Shown here piece after piece: positions 6,617-36,345 of a stretch of 36,345 bases of DNA (positions within the stretch are counted from its first letter, which is position 1; the number at the start of each line of letters is the position of its first letter). The DNA lies in contig NZ_BONI01000087.1 in the NCBI RefSeq assembly GCF_016862635.1, positions 1 through 36,345 of the forward strand, read 5' to 3'. The notes below the pieces were generated by a model. It had not been told where the DNA came from, did no database searches, and saw only the letters and a program-made list of their open reading frames with translations. Position numbers and translations under genes: made by a program. Source of the stretch: Catellatospora coxensis. Its GTDB lineage: Bacteria > Actinomycetota > Actinomycetes > Mycobacteriales > Micromonosporaceae.

Positions 6617-6665
6617 AAGGAAGGGCACCCTCCGCACCAATAGCGTTAAGAAGGTGCCCTTCCTT
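6617..6665. terminator. Repeat family A, copy 1: hairpin, probable terminator
   Basis: A 13-bp perfect inverted repeat (arm AAGGAAGGGCACC, 6617-6629 with 6653-6665) with a 23-nt interior, ending 4 nt before the stop of the minus-strand metalloprotease. Two more copies with the same arms are at 17332 and 20515. Placement directly after stop codons suggests termination; here it also lies just upstream of the next minus-strand gene. Confidence 0.75.
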
Positions 6666-17331: not shown

Positions 17332-17381
17332 AAGGAAGGGCACCTTCTACACGGACGTCCGTTATGAAGGTGCCCTTCCTT
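17332..17381. terminator. Repeat family A, copy 2: bidirectional terminator
   Basis: A perfect 16-bp stem (arm AAGGAAGGGCACCTTC, 17332-17347 with 17366-17381), 6 nt after the protease stop and 14 nt before the end of the convergent UvrA-like gene. The 18-nt interior contains ACGGACGTCCGT, itself a palindrome. Each strand reads T-rich CTTCCTT at its 3' side. Confidence 0.85.
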
Positions 17382-20514: not shown

Positions 20515-20563
20515 AAGGAAGGGCACCTTCCACAACGCATAGCGATGTGAAGGTGCCCTTCCT
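20515..20563. terminator. Repeat family A, copy 3: bidirectional terminator
   Basis: A 15-bp stem with the family A arms (left arm 20515-20530, right arm 20549-20563), 18-nt interior, in the 88-nt gap between the convergent tetR and hypF genes. Interior AACGCATAGCG partly matches copy 1 (AATAGCGTTAAG) in inverted sense. Confidence 0.85.
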
Positions 20564-28165: not shown

Positions 28166-28205
28166 CTACATCTTTTTCGATGTGCCCACATCGAAAAAGA
28201 TGTAG
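28166..28205. repeat. Repeat family B, copy 1: 19-bp perfect palindrome
   Basis: A perfect 19-bp inverted repeat (28166-28184 with 28187-28205) around only CC. Arm core CATCTTTTTCGATGTG. The same arms recur at 35630-35662. Each strand has a run of T5 inside the stem, not after it. Confidence 0.85.
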
Positions 28206-28288: not shown

Positions 28289-29191
28289 GTGACCGGCCAC
28301 CGCGACGACTTCTCCCTGGGCATCCGTGACGACGAGCCACCCACCACGGCCGCGCTGCGGCGGATCCTCGGCGAGGCCGCGGAGGTCGTCATCGTCGAGG
28401 CGTCGCCCTACAATCTGGACAAACCGGATGCCGAGCGCATCACGGTGTCCGGCGCCGAGATCGGCGAGCTGGCCGAGCTGCTGGCCATCGTGGACGGCGG
28501 CACGGGCGATCGGTGCCGGTGCCTGGGCTCGCCGACGATCCTCGTGCGCGACGCGGCCGGCCGCGACATCGCCCAGTGGACCCTGCACCACCAGACCGGC
28601 CTGCGGGGCATCGGCGACAGTGACGCCGACCTGCGCGACGGCCCCGCGCTCACGGACTGGCTCGCCGAGCACGGCCTGACCGGACCCCGCGAGATCCAGC
28701 GGATGCTGGCCGAGTACGCGGCGCAGGAGGAGGTCCGCCGGGTCGCATGGGTGCGGGCCGCGCCGCCCGGACTCACCGAGGCCGCCGAGGCCGCGTCCCG
28801 CCGGGAGGACGACGACGCGGAGGAGCGGCTCGCCGAGCTCACCGCCGTGCGCTTCCCCGATGCCGCGGAGCGGATCGCGGTGCTGCTGGCCTGGGCGGGT
28901 TTCACTCCGCACGCCCCGCCGGTGCCCGGGGGCGGTACGCCCTGGCACGAGCTCGCGCCACGGCGGATGCTGCTCCAGGAGCCCGCCGAGGCGATCTTCG
29001 AGGTGCTGGCCGCGGCGCCGCCGACACCTGCCCAGCTCGACGGGGCGGCCGAGCTGTTCACCGACCTCGACTGGAAGGGGCGGCCGGACCCGCCGGAGCC
29101 GCTGCGATCGGTGTTGATCGCGCACGTCACGGCGACGGGCACCGACCCGATGCGGACCCGGATGGGGTGGGGCTACGGCCGGGCGGGCTGA
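28289..29191 (+). CDS. Protein of unknown function, probably leaderless
   Basis: 300 aa, soluble and acidic, not recognised. The N-terminal half looks alpha/beta (AEVVIVEASPYNLD, ERITVSGAEIGELAELLAIV, CRCLGSPTILVRDAAGRDIA, resembling a small structural or immunity-type domain), the rest mainly helical with a Glu/Asp-rich stretch (RREDDDAEERLAEL). GTG 28289 has no ribosome site but lies 7 nt after TACGCT (28276-28281), typical of leaderless actinobacterial transcripts. Its last 19 nt overlap the end of the convergent photolyase gene and no terminator separates them, so the two transcripts probably overlap at their 3' ends. Confidence 0.7.
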   Translation: MTGHRDDFSLGIRDDEPPTTAALRRILGEAAEVVIVEASPYNLDKPDAERITVSGAEIGELAELLAIVDGGTGDRCRCLGSPTILVRDAAGRDIAQWTLHHQTGLRGIGDSDADLRDGPALTDWLAEHGLTGPREIQRMLAEYAAQEEVRRVAWVRAAPPGLTEAAEAASRREDDDAEERLAELTAVRFPDAAERIAVLLAWAGFTPHAPPVPGGGTPWHELAPRRMLLQEPAEAIFEVLAAAPPTPAQLDGAAELFTDLDWKGRPDPPEPLRSVLIAHVTATGTDPMRTRMGWGYGRAG

Positions 29192-30396
29192 CCGCCCGTT
29201 CCGGTCCAGCGGCGCACGTACTCGCCGTCGGGGTCGAAGCGCTCGGCCTGCCGGTCGGGGCTGAAGCGCCGGTACGGCTTGGTGTCGGTGCCGGTCCCGG
29301 CGACCCACTGCCAGTTGCCGTAGTTGTTGGCCACGTCGGCGTCGATCAGCAGCCGGTTATACCAGGCCGCGCCGTCGCGCCAGTCCAGCCCGAGGGTCTT
29401 GGTCAGGTAGGAGGCGGTGACCAGCCGCGCCCGGTTGTGCATCCAGCCCTCGGCCGCGAGCTGCTTCATGCCGGCGTCCACGATGGGCACCCCGGTCTCG
29501 CCGGCCTGCCACGCCTGCAGCGCTTCCGGGTCGTCGTGCCACTGCTCTTGCGCGCCCGGCCGGAACGCCTGCGTGCCGAGCTTCGGGAACGCGGCCAGCA
29601 GCTGGTGGTAGAAGTCGCGCCAGCACAGCTGCCGCAGGTACGCCTCGGGCATGCCGTCGGTGGTGGCCAGGGCGAGCGGGGACAGGCAGCCGAAGTGCAG
29701 GTACGGGCTCAGCCGCGAGGTGGCGTCGCCGGGCAGGTCGTCGTGCCGGTCGGCGTACGCGGCTGCCTTGGTCCTCCAGTTCCTGACCCGGCGCAGGGCT
29801 TCACTTTCGCCGCCGCTCATCGGGTGCGGCGACTCGCTCTTCGCGTCGCCGAGCACGGTGCGCGGGTCGTCGCCGGTGACGCCGTCGGGCAGGTGCACCT
29901 TGCGCGGGGTGGCGACCGTGCCGCGCCAGCGCCGCGACTGCCAGGCCCGCCAGTACGGGGTGAACACCTTGTAGTGGTCGCCGCCGGTGGACGGGGTGAC
30001 CTCGCCCGCGGGGACGATCGTGACGCCGGGGAACAGTTTGAGCGCGAGCCGCTCGCGTGCGCAGGCCCGCGCGAGCCGCTCCTGCCGGCGCGCCGCGTAC
30101 CCGGACACGTCGGCGGTCAGCGCGATGCCCTCGGCGCCGACCTCCCGGGCGGTGCGCACCGCCTCGGCGACCGGGTCGCCGGAGCGCACCAGCAGGTCGC
30201 CGCCCCGGCGGCGCAGGCCGTCGCGGAGGTCCTGCAGGCTCTCCAGCAGGAAGCGGCGGCGGTTGTCCGGCACGGTCAGCGCCGGGTCGGCGACGAACAG
30301 CGGGACCACCCGTTCGGCGTTGGCGCAGGAGGCGGCGAGCGCGGGATGATCGTGCACGCGCAGATCGCGGGTCAGCAGCAGGACGACGGTATTCAT
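29173..30396 (-). CDS. phr: Deoxyribodipyrimidine photolyase (class I photolyase/cryptochrome family)
   Basis: 407 aa flavoprotein that uses blue light to split pyrimidine dimers in DNA. The N-terminal Rossmann domain starts at VVLLLTRDLRVHDHPAL; the FAD domain contains SRLSPYLHFGCLSP, RQLCWRDFYHQLLA, GWMHNRARLVTASYLTKTLG and NNYGNWQWVAGTGTD, all well-kept class I motifs. The protein ends soon after GEYVRRW, so it is some 50 residues shorter at the C-terminus than E. coli Phr (472 aa); I found no continuation in another frame. ATG 30396 has GGGGA 5 nt upstream; an ATG two codons earlier is badly spaced. It is divergent from a LitR/CarH-like regulator, a common pairing for light-induced photolyase. 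Confidence 0.9.
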   Translation of the reverse strand: MNTVVLLLTRDLRVHDHPALAASCANAERVVPLFVADPALTVPDNRRRFLLESLQDLRDGLRRRGGDLLVRSGDPVAEAVRTAREVGAEGIALTADVSGYAARRQERLARACARERLALKLFPGVTIVPAGEVTPSTGGDHYKVFTPYWRAWQSRRWRGTVATPRKVHLPDGVTGDDPRTVLGDAKSESPHPMSGGESEALRRVRNWRTKAAAYADRHDDLPGDATSRLSPYLHFGCLSPLALATTDGMPEAYLRQLCWRDFYHQLLAAFPKLGTQAFRPGAQEQWHDDPEALQAWQAGETGVPIVDAGMKQLAAEGWMHNRARLVTASYLTKTLGLDWRDGAAWYNRLLIDADVANNYGNWQWVAGTGTDTKPYRRFSPDRQAERFDPDGEYVRRWTGTGGQPARP

Positions 30397-30470
30397 GATC
30401 ATCCCCAGACGTCGGCGGGAGATAACGATGCAGCAATCAACGCAACTGTACGCTGCGATAGGCTGCTGAC
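30397..30470. promoter_or_regulatory. Divergent promoter region of photolyase and LitR-like regulator
   Basis: 74 nt. On the plus strand TAGGCT (30459-30464) is 6 nt before the regulator GTG, a leaderless arrangement. The AT-richer centre (30421-30460) contains CTGTACG and several GCA/TGC pairs but no clean inverted repeat; LitR/CarH regulators are known to bind this kind of overlapping promoter in the dark. Confidence 0.5.
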
Positions 30471-31391
30471 GTGGCAGGCGAGGACGAAGGGCTGAGCGCG
30501 GGCGCCGTCGCCCGGCGGCTCGGCATCGCCGTCACCACGTTGCGCACCTGGCACCAGCGCTACGGGCTCGGCCCCAGCGGCCACGACCCCGGCCACCACC
30601 GCCGCTACGACGCCGACGCGCTGGCCCGCCTGGAGACGATGCGGCGGCTCACCGCCCAGGGCGTGCCCGCCGCCGAAGCCGCCCGCGTCGCTCGCTCCGC
30701 CGGCGCCGACGGGATCGCGCAACTCGCCGAGGAGCGCCCGCACACCCGCGACGGCGGCGGGCACACCGTCGCCGTCGGCCCGGCCGGCGCGCAGGCCCGC
30801 GGGCTGGCCCGCGCCGCCATGCGGCTCGACGCGCTCACCGTGCGCCACCTCGTGCAGGAGTCCGTCGCCGAGCACGGCGTCGTCGACGCCTGGCAGGACC
30901 TGCTGGTGCCCGTGCTCGTCGGCATCGGCAACCGGCACGCCGCCACCCAGCGCCTCGTCGACGTCGAACACCTCGTCTCGCGCTGCGTCAGCGAGGTCTT
31001 CGGCGGGGTGCGCCGCCCCGCGCCCGGCTCGCCGGTGCCGGTGCTGCTGGCCTGCGCCGACGAGGAGCAGCACAGCCTGCCTCTGGAGGCCCTGGCCGCC
31101 GCGCTCGCCGAACGCGGCGTCGCCGCCCGGCTGCTCGGCGCCCGCGTCCCCCCGCGCGCCCTGCTCGACGCCGTACGCCGCACCGGCCCGGCCATCGTCG
31201 TCATGTGGTCGCACATGCCCGAGACGGCCGACCTCGCCACGCTGCGCGCCGTGCTGGAGCTGCCGCACCGCCCCGCCGTCGTCGCGGCCGCCGGCCCCGG
31301 CTGGCCCGACGAGCTGCCCGACGGTGTGCTGCGGCCGTGCACGCTCGACGAGGCGCTCACGCTCGTCGCCACGGTCAGCCCGGTGCCCTGA
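30471..31391 (+). CDS. MerR family regulator with B12-binding-like domain (LitR/CarH type)
   Basis: 306 aa. N-terminal MerR helix-turn-helix (AGAVARRLGIAVTTLRTWHQ, 10-29, then HDPGHHRRYDADAL). The C-terminal half matches the B12-binding regulators: a helical region with GNRHAATQRLVDVEHLVS (153-170) and a Rossmann-like domain with DEEQH (197-201) giving a possible lower ligand His201. In CarH the cap motif is Wx9EH; here it is His156-x9-Glu166-His167, so the Trp that covers adenosylcobalamin is replaced by His. The family represses photolyase and carotenoid genes in the dark and lets go on illumination. Its place 74 nt from a divergent photolyase fits. GTG 30471 appears leaderless (TAGGCT 6 nt upstream). 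Confidence 0.85.
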   Translation: MAGEDEGLSAGAVARRLGIAVTTLRTWHQRYGLGPSGHDPGHHRRYDADALARLETMRRLTAQGVPAAEAARVARSAGADGIAQLAEERPHTRDGGGHTVAVGPAGAQARGLARAAMRLDALTVRHLVQESVAEHGVVDAWQDLLVPVLVGIGNRHAATQRLVDVEHLVSRCVSEVFGGVRRPAPGSPVPVLLACADEEQHSLPLEALAAALAERGVAARLLGARVPPRALLDAVRRTGPAIVVMWSHMPETADLATLRAVLELPHRPAVVAAAGPGWPDELPDGVLRPCTLDEALTLVATVSPVP

Positions 31392-31418
31392 CCTCCCACC
31401 AGCCGCCATGTGCGCGGG

Positions 31419-31432
31419 CACCACCGGTGGTG
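31419..31432. promoter_or_regulatory. Perfect 14-bp palindrome upstream of the acyltransferase operon
   Basis: CACCACCGGTGGTG, a perfect inverted repeat 27 nt after the stop of the LitR-like gene and about 58 nt upstream of the probable transcription start at 31490. It could be a terminator for the former or an operator for the latter. Confidence 0.4.
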
Positions 31433-31477
31433 GCCGCTTTCGTCGACCGCGACCATCAGCGGCGACCTGCCCGGCCA

Positions 31478-31489
31478 TACGCTCAGGGC
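31478..31489 (+). promoter_or_regulatory. Leaderless-type promoter of the leader peptide and operon
   Basis: TACGCT (31478-31483) fits a TAnnnT -10 box, with exactly 6 nt to the ATG of the leader peptide. No convincing -35 is seen, as often in actinobacteria. Confidence 0.5.
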
Positions 31490-31522
31490 ATGACGAGTCG
31501 GCGGGAGAGTGGGGCGACGTGA
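31490..31522 (+). CDS. 10-codon leader peptide coupled to the acyltransferase gene
   Basis: ATG 31490 starts MTSRRESGAT and the TGA (31520-31522) overlaps the GTG start of the GNAT gene as GTGA. A TACGCT box 6 nt before the ATG indicates a leaderless message that begins at this ATG. Ribosomes reading the peptide would end on the GNAT start and could reinitiate there. The peptide has no runs of a single amino acid, so classical attenuation is not indicated. It is too short to judge by codon bias; the call rests on the box spacing and the overlap. Confidence 0.45.
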   Translation: MTSRRESGAT

Positions 31523-32391
31523 CGCAGCAGATCACCGTGGACGCGGTGGTGCGGGCCGAGGAGCTGGCGCGGGCCGCGGCCGACCGGCTGGGCGTACGCA
31601 TGCGTGAGCTGTCCACCGTGCCGGAGCAGAACCGCGCGGCCGACCTGCTGTGCCGGGTCTGGCGGGCCGACTCGCCCGACCAGCTCATCAACGCCGGCAT
31701 GCTGCGCGCGCTGGAGCACTCCGGCAACTACGTCGTCGGGGCATACCGCGGCGACGACCTGATCGGCGCGGCCGTGGGCTTCTTCGGCGCCGGCCACCTG
31801 CACTCGCACATCGCCGGGGTGGACCCCGCCAAGCAGAGCGGCGGCGTCGGCTTCGCGCTCAAGCAGCACCAGCGGGCCTGGACCCTGGCCCGGGGCATCG
31901 GCGAGATCTGCTGGACCTTCGACCCGCTGGTACGCCGTAACGCGTACGTGAACCTGCACAAGCTCGGCGCGACGGCGGCCGAGTACCTGCCGGACTTCTA
32001 CGGCGAGATGAACGACGGCATCAACACCGGCGAGGCGACCGATCGCGTCTACGTGCGCTGGGAGCTGCTGTCCCCGGCCGCGTCGGCCGCCGCCCGGGGT
32101 GAGGTGCGCGAGGTCGACCTGGCCGCGCTGCGCGCCGCCGGGGCGGCCGAGCTGCTGAGCCGCACCTCGACCGACGCGCCGACCCTGCCGCCGACCCGCC
32201 CGCCGACCGACGCCCGGGTGCTGCTGGTCGCGGTGCCGGCGGACATCGAGCGGCTGCGGGTGGAGCACCGCGACGTGGCGAAGCTGTGGCGGGCCGCGGT
32301 ACGCGACGCGATCTGCGGGGCGCTGGAGACCGGCTACCGGATCACCGGGATGAGCCGTGAGGGTTGGTACGTGCTGGAGGAGAAGTCATGA
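31519..32391 (+). CDS. GNAT-superfamily acyltransferase, predicted amino acid N-acyltransferase
   Basis: 290 aa. The GNAT core includes YVVGAYRGDDLIGAAVGFFG (71-90), HSHIAGVDPAKQSGGVGFAL (95-114, the cofactor-binding loop in which QSGGVG replaces the usual R/QxxGxG/A) and CWTFDPLVRRNAYVNLHKLG (131-150). It resembles the predicted acyltransferases (COG3375 type) encoded beside N-succinylamino acid racemases, where in Geobacillus kaustophilus the enzyme is a succinyltransferase acting on D-amino acids. The next gene is that racemase and the two overlap by 4 nt (ATGA). By context it acylates an amino acid with succinyl- or acetyl-CoA; donor and acceptor are inferred. GTG 31519 overlaps the leader peptide stop. 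Confidence 0.85.
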   Translation: MTQQITVDAVVRAEELARAAADRLGVRMRELSTVPEQNRAADLLCRVWRADSPDQLINAGMLRALEHSGNYVVGAYRGDDLIGAAVGFFGAGHLHSHIAGVDPAKQSGGVGFALKQHQRAWTLARGIGEICWTFDPLVRRNAYVNLHKLGATAAEYLPDFYGEMNDGINTGEATDRVYVRWELLSPAASAAARGEVREVDLAALRAAGAAELLSRTSTDAPTLPPTRPPTDARVLLVAVPADIERLRVEHRDVAKLWRAAVRDAICGALETGYRITGMSREGWYVLEEKS

Positions 32392-33494
32392 AGGTGACCG
32401 GGTTCGAGCTGCGCCGGATCGCGATGCCGCTGGTCAGCCCGTTCCGCACCTCGTTCGGGGTGGAACACGACCGCGACGTGCTGCTGGTGCGCGCGGTGAC
32501 CGAGGACGGGGCCGAAGGCTGGGGCGAGTGCGTGGCGATGTCCGAGCCGCTGTACTCCAGCGAGTACGTGGACGGGGCCGCCGAGGTGATCCGGCGCTTC
32601 CTGATCCCGGCGGTGCTGAGCCTGCCCGACGCCGATCCGTACCAGGTCGAGGTGCCGTTCGCGAAGATCAAGGGCCACCCGATGGCCAAGGCGGCGGTGC
32701 AGACGGCGCTGCTGGACGCGAAGCTGCGGATCGCGGGCATGCCGCTGGCGGCGCACCTGGGCGCGGTGCGCGACCGGGTCCCCGCGGGCGTCTCGGTCGG
32801 CATCATGGACTCGATCCCGGAGCTGCTCGAAGCCGTCGAGGGCTACCTGGCCGAGGGCTACCTGCGGATCAAGCTGAAGATCCAGCCCGGCTGGGACGTC
32901 GAGCCGGTGCGCGCGGTGCGCGAGCGCTTCGGCGACATCCTGCTCCAGGTCGACGCGAACACGGCGTACACCCTCGCCGACGCCCGCCACCTGGCCAAGC
33001 TGGACCCGTTCGAGCTGCTGCTGATGGAGCAGCCGCTGCCCGAGGACGACATCCGCGGCCACGCCGAGCTGGCGAAGCAGGTGCGCACGCCGATCTGCCT
33101 CGACGAGTCGATCACCAGCGCGCGGGCCGCCGCCGACGCGATCGCGCTCGGCGCGACGTCGGTCGTCAACATCAAACCCGGCCGGGTCGGCGGCTACCTG
33201 GAGGCCCGCCGGGTGCACGACGTGTGCGCCGCCAACGGGGTGCCGGTCTGGGTCGGCGGCATGCTGGAGACCGGTATCGGCCGCGCCGCGAACGTGGCCC
33301 TGGCCGCGCTGCCCGGCTGCGTCCTGCCCGGCGACACGTCCGCCTCGGACCGCTACTTCCGCCGCGACATCACCGCCCCGTTCGTGCTGGCCGACGGGCA
33401 CCTGGCCGTGCCGACCGGGCCGGGCGTGGGCGTCGACCCGGACCCCGACGCGCTCGCCGAGGTCACCACCGCCACGGAATGGATCGCCCGCTGA
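32388..33494 (+). CDS. N-acylamino acid racemase / o-succinylbenzoate synthase (enolase superfamily)
   Basis: 368 aa, the same length as the N-acylamino acid racemase of Amycolatopsis, which I recall as nearly collinear (shared ELRR, PFRTSFG, PLYSSEY, GVSVGIMD, RIKLKI, WDVEPVRAVRERFGD, NIKPGRVGGYLEARRVHDVC). Catalytic residues: Lys162/Lys164 in the KxK motif, metal ligands Asp189, Glu214 and Asp239, and Lys263 in NIKPG. These enzymes interconvert N-acyl- (best N-succinyl-) D- and L-amino acids with Mg2+ and can also make o-succinylbenzoate for menaquinone. Because it is coupled to an acyltransferase gene and followed by a deacylase gene, the racemase role is favoured; no men genes are nearby. 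ATG 32388 overlaps the preceding stop. Confidence 0.93.
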   Translation: MKVTGFELRRIAMPLVSPFRTSFGVEHDRDVLLVRAVTEDGAEGWGECVAMSEPLYSSEYVDGAAEVIRRFLIPAVLSLPDADPYQVEVPFAKIKGHPMAKAAVQTALLDAKLRIAGMPLAAHLGAVRDRVPAGVSVGIMDSIPELLEAVEGYLAEGYLRIKLKIQPGWDVEPVRAVRERFGDILLQVDANTAYTLADARHLAKLDPFELLLMEQPLPEDDIRGHAELAKQVRTPICLDESITSARAAADAIALGATSVVNIKPGRVGGYLEARRVHDVCAANGVPVWVGGMLETGIGRAANVALAALPGCVLPGDTSASDRYFRRDITAPFVLADGHLAVPTGPGVGVDPDPDALAEVTTATEWIAR

Positions 33495-33549
33495 CCTCTT
33501 CGCCCCGTTTGGCCGGACCGGGACCGCCGCCGTCGGCGACAATGACGGC

Positions 33550-33876
33550 GTGGCTGCGCGTACCCGGCTCCGGATCGACTGGCTGCCGCTGGTCGCGGTG
33601 CTGCTGTGCCTGCTGTCGGCGGGCGGCTACGTGATAGCCGTCGTCGAGCAGGGCGGCACGCCGGTGCTCTGGTTCGTGGGCGCGCTGCTGGTCGCGGCCG
33701 CGCTGACGCTCGGCGGCGCGCTCGGCTCCCGGCGGCGGCGCGCCCCGGCCCTGCTGGCCGCAGGCATCCTGCTGTGCGGGCTCGGCGCGCTGGCCCTGTT
33801 CAGCGTCGGCATGCCCCTCATCGCCGCCGGCCTGATCGCTTTCGCGGCCGCGGGTCGCGCCCGCGTCACCACCTGA
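33550..33876 (+). CDS. Small four-helix membrane protein
   Basis: 108 aa, about four hydrophobic helices (11-32, 38-59, 66-84, 85-102) separated by short basic loops (SRRRRAP at 60-66). No family is recognised. GTG 33550 lacks a ribosome site but follows GACAAT by 6 nt, which may be a weak leaderless promoter; alternatively it is read as the third gene of the acylamino acid operon (55 nt after the racemase, 70 nt before the amidohydrolase). A transport or anchoring role for the pathway is possible but unsupported by sequence. Confidence 0.7.
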   Translation: MAARTRLRIDWLPLVAVLLCLLSAGGYVIAVVEQGGTPVLWFVGALLVAAALTLGGALGSRRRRAPALLAAGILLCGLGALALFSVGMPLIAAGLIAFAAAGRARVTT

Positions 33877-33946
33877 CCTGTTCATGATCCGGCGTGCGGT
33901 CCGCAAACCGCGCCGCCACCACCCCTTCCCCCGAGGAGCTCGAACC

Positions 33947-35503
33947 ATGCACGACCTGCTGTTGCGCGGTGGCACCGTGCACGACGGGCTGGGCGGCCCC
34001 GGCACCGTCGCCGACGTCGCGATCACCGGCGACCGGGTGACCGCCGTCGGCGCCGGCCTGGGCCCGGCCCGCCGCGAGCTCGACGTGACCGGCCTGGCCG
34101 TCGCGCCGGGCTTCATCGACGCGCACAGCCACTCCGACCCGGTGCCGCTGATGCCCGAGCCGCAGCCGTTCAAGCTGTTCCAGGGCGTCACCACGGAGAT
34201 CGTCGGCAACTGCGGGTTCTCGTTCGCGCCGCTGGACGCCGCCGCGATCGAGGCCACCGGGCCGCTCTTCGGGGAGCTGGCCGGGGGCGTGCCGGTCGTG
34301 CCGCGCGACTTCGCCGGCTACCTCGCCGACATCGCCGCGGCGGGCCCGACCAACCACATCGCCGCCATGGTCGGGCACAACACCCTGCGGGCGTACGCCA
34401 ACGGCATGGACGAGCGGTTGCGCCCCGGCGCGCTGGAGCAGATGTGCCGCCTGGCCGACGAGGCGTTCGCGGCCGGCGCGGTCGGCCTGTCCAGCGGACT
34501 GATCTACCCACCGGGCAGCTACGGCGACACCGCCGAGCTGGTCGCCCTGGCCCGGGTCGCGCACCGCTGGAACCGCCCGTACACCACGCACCTGCGCAAC
34601 GAGGACGACCGGCTCGCCGAGGCCCTCGACGAGGCGATCGCCATCGCGACGCAGGCCCGGGTCCGGCTGCAGGTCTCGCACTGCAAGGTCGCCGGCAAGG
34701 CCAACCACGGCGGCGGCAAGGCGCTGCTGGCCAAGCTGCACGCCGCCCGCCTGGCCGGCGTGGACGTGCGCGGCGACCAGTACCCGTACCGCGCGGGCGG
34801 CACCTTCCTCAACGCGCTGCTGCCCGGCGCTGCCCTGGTCGGCGGCACCGAGGCGATGCGGGCCCGGCTCGCCGACCCGGCCGAGCGGGCGCGGCTGCGC
34901 GCCCTGGCCGAGGACCTGACGCAGCCCAACGGCTTCTGGGCCCGCGCGACCCCGGCCGACGTCTTCGTCACCACGCACGCGACCCGGCCCGAGGTCACCG
35001 GCCGCACCCTGGCCGAGCTGGCGGGCGCGGGCGACGCCTTCGACACGCTGTGCGAGGTGCTGCTCGGCGACCCGGGCGCGGGCATGGTGATCACGCTGAT
35101 GGCCGAGGACGACGTCGAGACCATCATGGCCGATCCGCTGATCGGCATCGGCTCCGACAACGGCCCGCCGGTCGGCCTGCAGCACCCGCGCACCTGGGGC
35201 TGCTTCCCGCGGGTGCTCGGCGAGTACGTGCGCGAGCGCGGCCTGCTCACCCTGCCCGAGGCGGTCCGCAAGATGACCTCGGCGATCGCCGACCAGTTCG
35301 GCCTCACCGGGCGCGGCTTCGTCGGCGAGGGCGCGGTCGCCGACCTGGTCGTGTTCGACCCGGCGACGATCGGCCACGACGGCACCTACGCCGTGCCCGA
35401 CGTGCGGCCGACCGGCGTCGAGCACGTCGTGCTGGCCGGCCACGTGGTGGTCGAGGCGGGCCGGTTCACCGGCGAGCGGCACGGCCGGGTGCTGCGCGAC
35501 TGA
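33947..35503 (+). CDS. N-acyl-D-amino-acid deacylase (D-aminoacylase) family amidohydrolase
   Basis: 518 aa. Amidohydrolase-superfamily enzyme with the D-aminoacylase pattern: GFIDAHSHSDP (His60, His62), VGNCGFS (Cys89), YTTHLRNE (His215), LQVSHCKV (His245) and GSDNGPP (Asp404), matching the zinc-binding and catalytic residues of the characterised D-aminoacylase family. The N- and C-terminal beta-sandwich parts (LLLRGGTVHDG and DLVVFDPATI ... HVVLAGHVVVEAG) are intact. It would cleave N-acyl-D-amino acids to D-amino acids and the free acid. Substrates vary widely in this family, so the exact one is open. ATG 33947 has GAGGAG 8 nt upstream. Placement behind an acyltransferase and N-acylamino acid racemase suggests a shared pathway. 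Confidence 0.9.
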   Translation: MHDLLLRGGTVHDGLGGPGTVADVAITGDRVTAVGAGLGPARRELDVTGLAVAPGFIDAHSHSDPVPLMPEPQPFKLFQGVTTEIVGNCGFSFAPLDAAAIEATGPLFGELAGGVPVVPRDFAGYLADIAAAGPTNHIAAMVGHNTLRAYANGMDERLRPGALEQMCRLADEAFAAGAVGLSSGLIYPPGSYGDTAELVALARVAHRWNRPYTTHLRNEDDRLAEALDEAIAIATQARVRLQVSHCKVAGKANHGGGKALLAKLHAARLAGVDVRGDQYPYRAGGTFLNALLPGAALVGGTEAMRARLADPAERARLRALAEDLTQPNGFWARATPADVFVTTHATRPEVTGRTLAELAGAGDAFDTLCEVLLGDPGAGMVITLMAEDDVETIMADPLIGIGSDNGPPVGLQHPRTWGCFPRVLGEYVRERGLLTLPEAVRKMTSAIADQFGLTGRGFVGEGAVADLVVFDPATIGHDGTYAVPDVRPTGVEHVVLAGHVVVEAGRFTGERHGRVLRD

Positions 35504-35629
35504 GGACTTCGCCGGGACGGTGTGCCTGTCGCCGCCGCTGCCCACGGTGCGGCAGGACTTCGACGAGGCCGCCGTCCACACGTCAGCCGCACGGGCCGGC
35601 GCACGGGAGGTGTCGCTCTGCGCGGCCTA

Positions 35630-35662
35630 CATCTTTTTTGATGTGGGCACATCAAAAAGATG
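35630..35662. repeat. Repeat family B, copy 2
   Basis: Imperfect palindrome, arms CATCTTTTTTGATGTG and CACATCAAAAAGATG around GG, with one bulged T on the left. The sequence matches copy 1 (28166-28205) except for C-to-T/G-to-A changes in the arms, which keep it palindromic. It lies in the 245-nt gap after the amidohydrolase gene. Confidence 0.8.
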
Positions 35663-35748
35663 AAGGCGCCACCGAGGATGTGTATGCGAACCGCCGCCGA
35701 GCCTTGTCGCGTGGTTCTGGGAGACACGACGGAAGGGGGACGCCGTAG

Positions 35749-35946
35749 ATGGGGCCGACGGCTGGCGACAGTGCGAGAGCCACGTGCTGCTTCTGCCATG
35801 ACGTGATCCGGGTCAGCGAGGACGAGTACGGGATGCAGGTGCAGCTGGCCCCGATGGCCGGCTCGAAAGTCATGCAGGTGATGTGGACCCACTCGTCGTG
35901 TCTGAGGGATCGGCTGCACCCGCACATGGCCGTCTGGTGGGAGTGA
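35749..35946 (+). CDS. Small CxxC-HxxC protein, zinc-ribbon-like
   Basis: 65 aa, hypothetical. CCFC near residue 13 and WTHSSCL near 46 provide a C-x2-C...H-x3-C set that can bind one zinc; the middle strand (YGMQVQLAPMAGSKVMQVMW) would form the connecting hairpin. Similar tiny Cys/His proteins occur widely in actinobacteria, with no defined role. GGAAGGGGG lies 9-17 nt before ATG 35749. No partner gene is apparent. Confidence 0.6.
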   Translation: MGPTAGDSARATCCFCHDVIRVSEDEYGMQVQLAPMAGSKVMQVMWTHSSCLRDRLHPHMAVWWE

Positions 35947-36021
35947 GCACAGGTGATGCGGGCTCGCGGCCTGCTGTGCATTGCCTGGGAACGTTGAGAG
36001 GGCGCTGAAAAGTGCTGCATG

Positions 36022-36050
36022 ATCGACCCTTGTGATCAGCAAGGGTCGAT
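36022..36050. terminator. 11-bp hairpin upstream of the secreted protein gene
   Basis: A perfect 11-bp inverted repeat (36022-36032 with 36040-36050, loop TGATCAG), 76 nt after the small CxxC gene and 167 nt before the next start. It may terminate the former or shape the leader of the latter. Confidence 0.45.
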
Positions 36051-36216
36051 GCGACGATGCATCTACTCGTGTGGAGCCTCACGCGGATCGGGCGGCCGAG
36101 GGCAACCGGTGGGACCGGACGGCGCCTGGTTGGCCGCTGCGCGGCCGCCGCGTATCCGTCCCGTCCACGGCCCGATCCGGGACATGCGGCCGGCACCCGC
36201 TCCATGAGGAGATCTC

Positions 36217-36345
36217 GTGAGTATCCGCACGTTGAGGCGTCGCGTCGCGCTGGTCGCGGTCGGCGCCATGGTCGTGGTCACGGGGGCGACGATCGCGTCC
36301 CCGGCCCACGCCGCCGTGTCCTGCCAGGTGACCTATACGAAAGCA
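36217..36345 (+). CDS. Secreted protein, probably with family 2 cellulose-binding module, 3' end missing
   Basis: The first 43 codons of a gene that runs off the window. A textbook signal peptide (MSIRTLRRRV, hydrophobic core, SPAHA cleavage near residue 32) is followed by VSCQVTYTKA, the typical opening of a CBM2 module (first disulfide Cys, then VTYT). CBM2 is usually fused to cellulases, xylanases or lytic polysaccharide monooxygenases; the catalytic part is beyond the end. GTG 36217 has GAGGAG 6 nt upstream. A secreted polysaccharide-degrading role would fit the sugar importer and beta-glucosidase at the other end of the window. Confidence 0.7.
   Translation, partial: MSIRTLRRRVALVAVGAMVVVTGATIASPAHAAVSCQVTYTKA

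Follow-up and report, generated by a model that had tools for sequence, protein, structure and literature searches.

A likely operon for a GNAT-fold acyltransferase, an N-succinylamino acid racemase and a D-aminoacylase-family deacylase in Catellatospora coxensis: a variant of the GNAT-NSAR pathway that may salvage D-amino acids

Contig NZ_BONI01000087.1 of Catellatospora coxensis (assembly GCF_016862635.1) was analysed over 36,345 nucleotides, and this whole stretch of DNA is called the window. Near its 3′-end lies a group of genes for a GNAT-fold acyltransferase (GNAT), an N-succinylamino acid racemase (NSAR) and an N-acyl-D-amino acid deacylase of the D-aminoacylase family (DAC), with a small hydrophobic open reading frame (ORF) located between the latter two:

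31519–32391, + strand: GNAT-fold N-acyltransferase, presumably acyl-CoA:amino acid, 290 aa, GTG start likely
32388–33494, + strand: NSAR/o-succinylbenzoate synthase (OSBS) of the enolase superfamily, 368 aa, ATG start
33550–33876, + strand: hydrophobic (membrane) ORF, 108 aa, accessory and not conserved in the operon
33947–35503, + strand: DAC, D-aminoacylase-family N-acyl-D-amino acid deacylase of the amidohydrolase superfamily, 518 aa, ATG start preceded by GAGGAG

All four ORFs are present and co-directional on the + strand, as stated in an earlier reading made from the letters of the window (the sequence-only reading), while two of the starts given there had to be changed. The ATG at 31490 lies in another frame than GNAT and is followed by a stop after 10 codons, so that GTG 31519 is the most likely start of GNAT; for DAC it is ATG 33947, with GAGGAG in front of it. 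The end of GNAT and the start of NSAR share 4 nt (ATGA, 32388–32391), and a scan of 30000–36345 for sigma-70-like promoters gave none within the operon, which counts as weak evidence. Judged by this arrangement, GNAT, NSAR and DAC likely form one operon.

The racemase scored 327 bits against TIGR01928, above the cut-off of 200.65, and its closest solved structures are those of the Amycolatopsis N-acylamino acid racemase (NAAAR, 1sja; full-length match, 556 bits). Residues K161, K163, D189, E214, D239, K263 and R266 are identical in the alignment, so the earlier statement that the catalytic residues are intact holds. We take K163 and K263 to be the catalytic lysines and D189, E214 and D239 the metal ligands of NSAR, and list R266 with them. 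By profile and alignment the protein is an NSAR/OSBS of the enolase superfamily, for which racemization of N-succinylamino acids is predicted, and its identity is 97 to 94% in C. paridis, C. sichuanensis, C. vulcania and C. methionotrophica. The tyrosine at the position of the F323Y exchange engineered in the Amycolatopsis NSAR was considered as a mark of DAC-linked racemases and turned out to be uninformative, since, of the NSAR rows at ≥60% identity, 105 were readable and 103 of these have it (seven more were unreadable). TIGR01928 itself bears the name o-succinylbenzoate synthase, and the Amycolatopsis enzyme is assigned as OSBS by some (accessible part of PMC4215206), which could mean that the racemase serves menaquinone synthesis and that the operon is unconnected with D-amino acids. 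However, the same genome holds two MqnA/MqnD-family genes above the cut-off, while neither a MenC of the PRK02901 type nor a MenD exceeded it (MenB, MenF and others were not searched). The NSAR is therefore probably dispensable for menaquinone, and we give this role hardly any credence.

For the GNAT protein no match was obtained with Pfam, NCBIfam or phmmer and the profile search was weak (best E 6e-4), therefore a structure model was used. The AlphaFold2 model, made from 51 sequences, had a mean pLDDT of 95.9 and matched GNAT acetyltransferases by Foldseek, for example, chain C of 4pv6 with a TM score of 0.84 by target length; the underlying alignment has 16 invariant columns. By its modelled fold, the first protein of the operon is a GNAT-fold acyltransferase.

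The best-scoring solved relatives of DAC are the D-aminoacylase 1m7j (310.7 bits), the N-acyl-D-glutamate deacylase 3gip (255.4), the amidohydrolase 9g5m (247.0) and OngB (232.1). Alignment with 1m7j, inspected by eye, showed that the counterparts of H67, H69, C96, H220, H250 and D366, which we take to be the metal ligands of D-aminoacylase, and those of K252, Y283 and R377, presumably its carboxylate-binding residues, are all kept. The assignment of the deacylase to the D-aminoacylase family made in the sequence-only reading thus stands, and hydrolysis of N-acyl-D-amino acids is predicted. In the DAC tree the window protein belongs to a clade of 31 rows (support 100/100) together with genes of family f22 (Jiangellaceae by inference) and of genomes G040, G062 and G031; the rows were picked mostly for nearness to NSAR, thus the tree does not gauge linkage. 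Since the OngB entry, titled carbohydrate de-N-acetylated protein, belongs to the same family and a GH48-CBM2 cellulase is encoded downstream of the operon in Catellatospora, the substrate of DAC might be another N-acyl carboxylate, for instance an N-acetyl sugar acid, on which OngB perhaps acts, and DAC would then merely share the operon. This is very unlikely in our judgement, as the top score is that of D-aminoacylase (310.7 bits vs. 232.1 for OngB) and several DAC lineages repeat the linkage to NSAR, M20 peptidases and mostly GNAT described below.

The order GNAT-NSAR-DAC was found in all 11 sampled Catellatospora genomes, in one of which (G118) NSAR and DAC are about 4.9 kb apart, and the cluster that had been proposed from the window is thereby confirmed. 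In G040, the NSAR stop codon is overlapped by the DAC start codon (TGATG). The conservation concerns these three genes and not the four-gene order first envisaged: the membrane ORF separates NSAR from DAC in 6 of the 11 operons, and two of the five genomes without it there (G051 and G071) have a homologue elsewhere. The suggestion that the membrane protein moves the product, as a conserved exporter would, was rejected on this basis.

The surroundings of NSAR were surveyed in 80 named actinobacterial loci, which are the best 80 of at least 589 relatives and extend at most 8 kb to each side. Of these loci, 75 have GNAT upstream of NSAR at a distance of ≤300 bp, 53 have an M20 peptidase, also upstream, at ≤3 kb, and 36 have a PucR regulator on the downstream side at ≤1.5 kb; ABC transporter, S9 peptidase and beta-lactamase-type genes are also frequent. 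GNAT next to NSAR is ordinary, and the GNAT/M20/PucR set is that expected of the described D-to-L pathway. DAC at ≥50% identity was seen only in the five Catellatospora loci of this set, and distant DAC relatives (27–40% identity) in six (L020, L049, L053, L062, L069 and L083, outside the 30 loci fetched for DAC, see below); flanks of 8 kb are too short to reveal a DAC 11–18 kb off, as in f22. In some NSAR clusters, a single ORF combines an S9 peptidase with a domain of the beta-lactamase/DD-peptidase type (L136:8771-12076 and L031:2494-6066).

Linkage between DAC and NSAR was examined in whole genomes. Within 200 genomes of the family, 43 had both enzymes at E≤1e-40 and 16 had them ≤20 kb apart (counted from tables), namely the 11 Catellatospora genomes, G040, G062, G022, G026 and G139. 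The scan of 394 genomes of the class, in which the top 3 candidates for DAC and the top 5 for NSAR were scored in each genome, gave 52 genomes with both, or 51 after leaving out G504, whose DAC row was not listed. DAC lay ≤20 kb from NSAR in 23 of them, where about 1.0 is expected by an estimate in which every genome counts as a single replicon and kinship is disregarded (f22 supplies 18 of the 23). The other five represent five further families, six in all, and both genes are on the same strand in 22 of the 23 genomes. Measured against this estimate, the DAC-NSAR link is not due to chance. When the family and class sets were taken together, 34 DAC genes of ≥55% identity were found, 32 of which are near NSAR or GNAT: 31 with NSAR or, in G274 at a contig end, with GNAT, and the one of G031 with GNAT only. 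The two exceptions are the gene of G362, which lies 1.3 kb short of the end of its contig, and that of G329, which is split into two frames. The latter (G329:C25:18379-19922, L178), 57–67% similar to the DAC of the window, has none of the NSAR-pathway genes beside it in the sequence read. A second DAC-NSAR pair in G322 (59% DAC) was counted by coordinates only.

Thirty loci outside Catellatospora were fetched for nearness of DAC to NSAR or for a DAC of the window clade, thus the counts from them tell what accompanies the link and not how frequent it is. M20 is present in 26 of the 30 (the exceptions are L121, L122, L140 and L181), and 19 of these 26 M20s are 55–64% identical to the query M20. 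The 16 f22 loci begin with DAC, continue on the same strand with the genes for an ABC peptide transporter and for S9 and beta-lactamase domains, and go on to M20, GNAT and finally NSAR; deviations are L179, where the contig ends within GNAT, and L138, L142 and L143, which have extra genes between M20 and GNAT. PucR follows NSAR in 10 of the 16; the sequence of L138, L143, L152, L179 and L182 breaks off at or close to NSAR or GNAT, and the 2 kb read in L136 contain no PucR. In L136, the transporter binding protein is of the SBP_bac_5 family, the S9 and beta-lactamase domains form a single ORF, and M20 is nearest to carboxypeptidase G2 (gene calls in several loci, including L136 and G040, come from a crude GC-based script). 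The beta-lactamase-family protein of L122 gave IS11, an alpha/beta hydrolase entry and PBP cyclase as top matches, and its solved relatives include alkaline D-peptidase, DD-carboxypeptidase, D-amino acid amidase and D-aminopeptidase. Ten further loci, whose DACs are more distant (L123–L125 and L144–L150), hold NSAR and M20, nine of them also a GNAT match. Going by this repeated association, DAC belongs to the GNAT-NSAR pathway and the operon of the window is a variant of it. No report of a natural GNAT-NSAR-D-aminoacylase operon was found in the open-access literature, a scope that leaves out most subscription papers.

As DAC mostly stands beside M20 in the linked loci outside Catellatospora, the simplest chemistry is that it feeds GNAT, NSAR and M20. 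We therefore propose, with a probability of a little under one half (about 0.48), that the operon is a reduced GNAT-NSAR pathway with a D-aminoacylase, by which D-amino acids would be salvaged. DAC would strip the acyl group (acetyl or larger) from N-acyl-D-amino acids, the D-amino acid set free would be succinylated or acetylated by GNAT, NSAR would invert the N-acyl-D-amino acid, and the L-amino acid would be released by an L-specific M20 enzyme encoded elsewhere in the genome. The direction of the pathway, its acyl-group specificity and its stereospecificity are those that we infer from the gene set. The GNAT, M20 and PucR neighbours of NSAR, as partner genes of the known D-to-L route, were counted in favour of salvage, and the GNAT of the described pathway makes N-acetyl- and N-succinyl-D-amino acids (accessible part of PMC8762209, citing Sakai 2006). 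A D-specific GNAT and a DAC working on the same acyl group would waste acyl-CoA in a futile cycle, hence DAC should act poorly on the group added by GNAT and the acyl preferences of the two enzymes should differ. Of the two options left by the sequence-only reading, salvage of acyl-D-amino acids fits best, given M20 in 26 of the 30 other loci.

The L-specific exit was looked for in the genomes. The source genome has three unlinked M20 relatives of 47 to 55% identity, one of which (L103) groups with the NSAR-linked M20s (SH support 97 for the small group and 89 for the larger one; the tree was made with FastTree only and covers the M20s from a third of the 80 named loci). It is the best candidate for the L exit:

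contig C104, 21665–22729, − strand: M20 peptidase grouping with the NSAR-linked M20s

The search for such enzymes covered seven genomes with GNAT-NSAR-DAC, and an M20 of the NSAR-linked group was present in G000, G087 and G016. Several observations weigh against the proposed salvage. The stretches read around the operon, 4 to 19 kb long in the 11 Catellatospora genomes, contain no M20, and neither do those of G040 and G062. Four of the seven searched genomes (G040, G062, G118 and G133) lack an M20 of the NSAR-linked group, thus the L exit is hypothetical there; G062, G118 and G133 have other M20s only, one of those of G133 (L172) being a long branch of unsure placement, and G040 has no M20 at E≤1e-40. 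Seven of the 26 co-located M20s are just 35–45% identical to the query, and in 28 of the 51 class genomes with both enzymes, DAC does not lie within 20 kb of NSAR. Finally, Catellatospora sp. KI3 (G016) carries, besides GNAT-NSAR-DAC, a second, canonical M20-GNAT-NSAR-PucR cluster (L195, G016:C23:156000-172000) without DAC in the stretch read, thus the DAC version could do something different.

The same observations lend some weight to the reverse direction, the first option of the sequence-only reading, in which GNAT would acylate an L-amino acid, NSAR would epimerize the product and DAC would free the D-amino acid, the whole being driven by acyl-CoA. In all 11 Catellatospora genomes and in G040, where DAC and NSAR overlap, the operon has DAC and no M20; the four genomes named above have no NSAR-linked M20; the M20 and DAC versions are separate in KI3; and engineered tandems of NSAR and D-acylase yield D-amino acids (accessible part of PMC7431475). 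However, the characterized GNAT acylates D-amino acids, as given in the accessible part of PMC8762209, whereas this route requires a GNAT that accepts L-amino acids; moreover, M20 stands alongside DAC in most of the other loci, and importers and peptidases, typical of catabolism, occur in many clusters. The route is accordingly the weaker of the two options and rather unlikely, and it is hardest to dismiss in genomes without NSAR-type M20. We are equally doubtful that in Catellatospora and G040-like genomes, the L-specific exit enzyme was swapped for a D-specific deacylase, which would turn the irreversible D-to-L pathway into an acyl-CoA-driven L-to-D converter and so into a general, pyridoxal phosphate-independent source of free D-amino acids.

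A further alternative is that NSAR simply makes both enantiomers of N-acyl-amino acids from outside available to DAC (or M20), with a minor or detoxifying role for GNAT. N-acetyl-methionine is a substrate of the Amycolatopsis NSAR according to the accessible part of PMC8142540, and DAC and M20 are often close to NSAR. Nevertheless, in the named loci no neighbour accompanies NSAR as constantly as GNAT, which overlaps it in the window, thus the acylation step looks central, and we regard such racemic use as improbable.

The natural feed of the GNAT-NSAR pathway is, to our knowledge, unclear. The link to D-aminoacylase, joined in many genomes by an importer of peptides and by D-peptidase-like hydrolases, points to N-acylated or peptide-bound D-amino acids as its likely source, and the gene set makes this testable across actinomycetes. 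The linked genes also supply D-amino acid biocatalysis with NSAR/D-acylase pairs that are matched by nature. Should the L-to-D direction be true, it would be a new bacterial way of making D-amino acids.

Other features of the window were noted as well. Directly upstream of the operon, a photolyase-like gene (29173–30402, − strand) is divergent from a MerR-like regulator gene (30471–31391, + strand), a pair resembling a light-response pair; both were assigned by eye. The following element lies 3′ of DAC:

35630–35662, no strand assigned: near-perfect palindrome CATCTTTTTTGATGTGGGCACATCAAAAAGATG, where the end of the transcription unit is a guess

The palindrome occurs in two near-perfect copies in the window, at 28169–28202 and 35630–35662 (CATCTTTTT(C/T)GATGTG..CACATC), and is possibly a terminator or a mobile palindrome. 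Hairpin-like AAGGAAGGGCACCTTC elements are repeated at 17332–17380, 20515–20563 and 6640–6664, the third being a half copy. In C. vulcania a GH48 cellulase with CBM2 is encoded downstream of DAC (L009:11551-15051, Pfam), and the start of a similar protein was recognized by eye at the 3′-end of the window, from about 36218.

The combination of NSAR with a D-acylase or D-succinylase to obtain D-amino acids is known as an engineered amidohydrolase process (PMC7431475, in its accessible part). The same two kinds of activity are predicted for the operon, whereas the combinations of that source are man-made, contain no acyltransferase and start from racemic N-acyl-amino acids. The GNAT/NSAR/L-desuccinylase pathway of Geobacillus kaustophilus, known to us in part through PMC8762209, likewise has an acyl-CoA-dependent GNAT adjoining NSAR, and the D specificity of the window GNAT is assumed from the enzyme described there. 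Unlike it, the operon of the window has a D-aminoacylase and no M20, and the 26 loci mentioned above have both deacylases. The window NSAR is of the same family as the racemase of Amycolatopsis sp. (1sja) and keeps the presumed catalytic residues, with the difference that it shares a likely operon with DAC. Compared with the D-aminoacylase 1m7j and the N-acyl-D-glutamate deacylase 3gip, DAC retains the metal ligands and carboxylate-binding residues as aligned with 1m7j; it differs from 1m7j in residues 298–341, which have no counterpart in the alignment, and from both in belonging to a clade whose genes mostly lie beside NSAR or GNAT.

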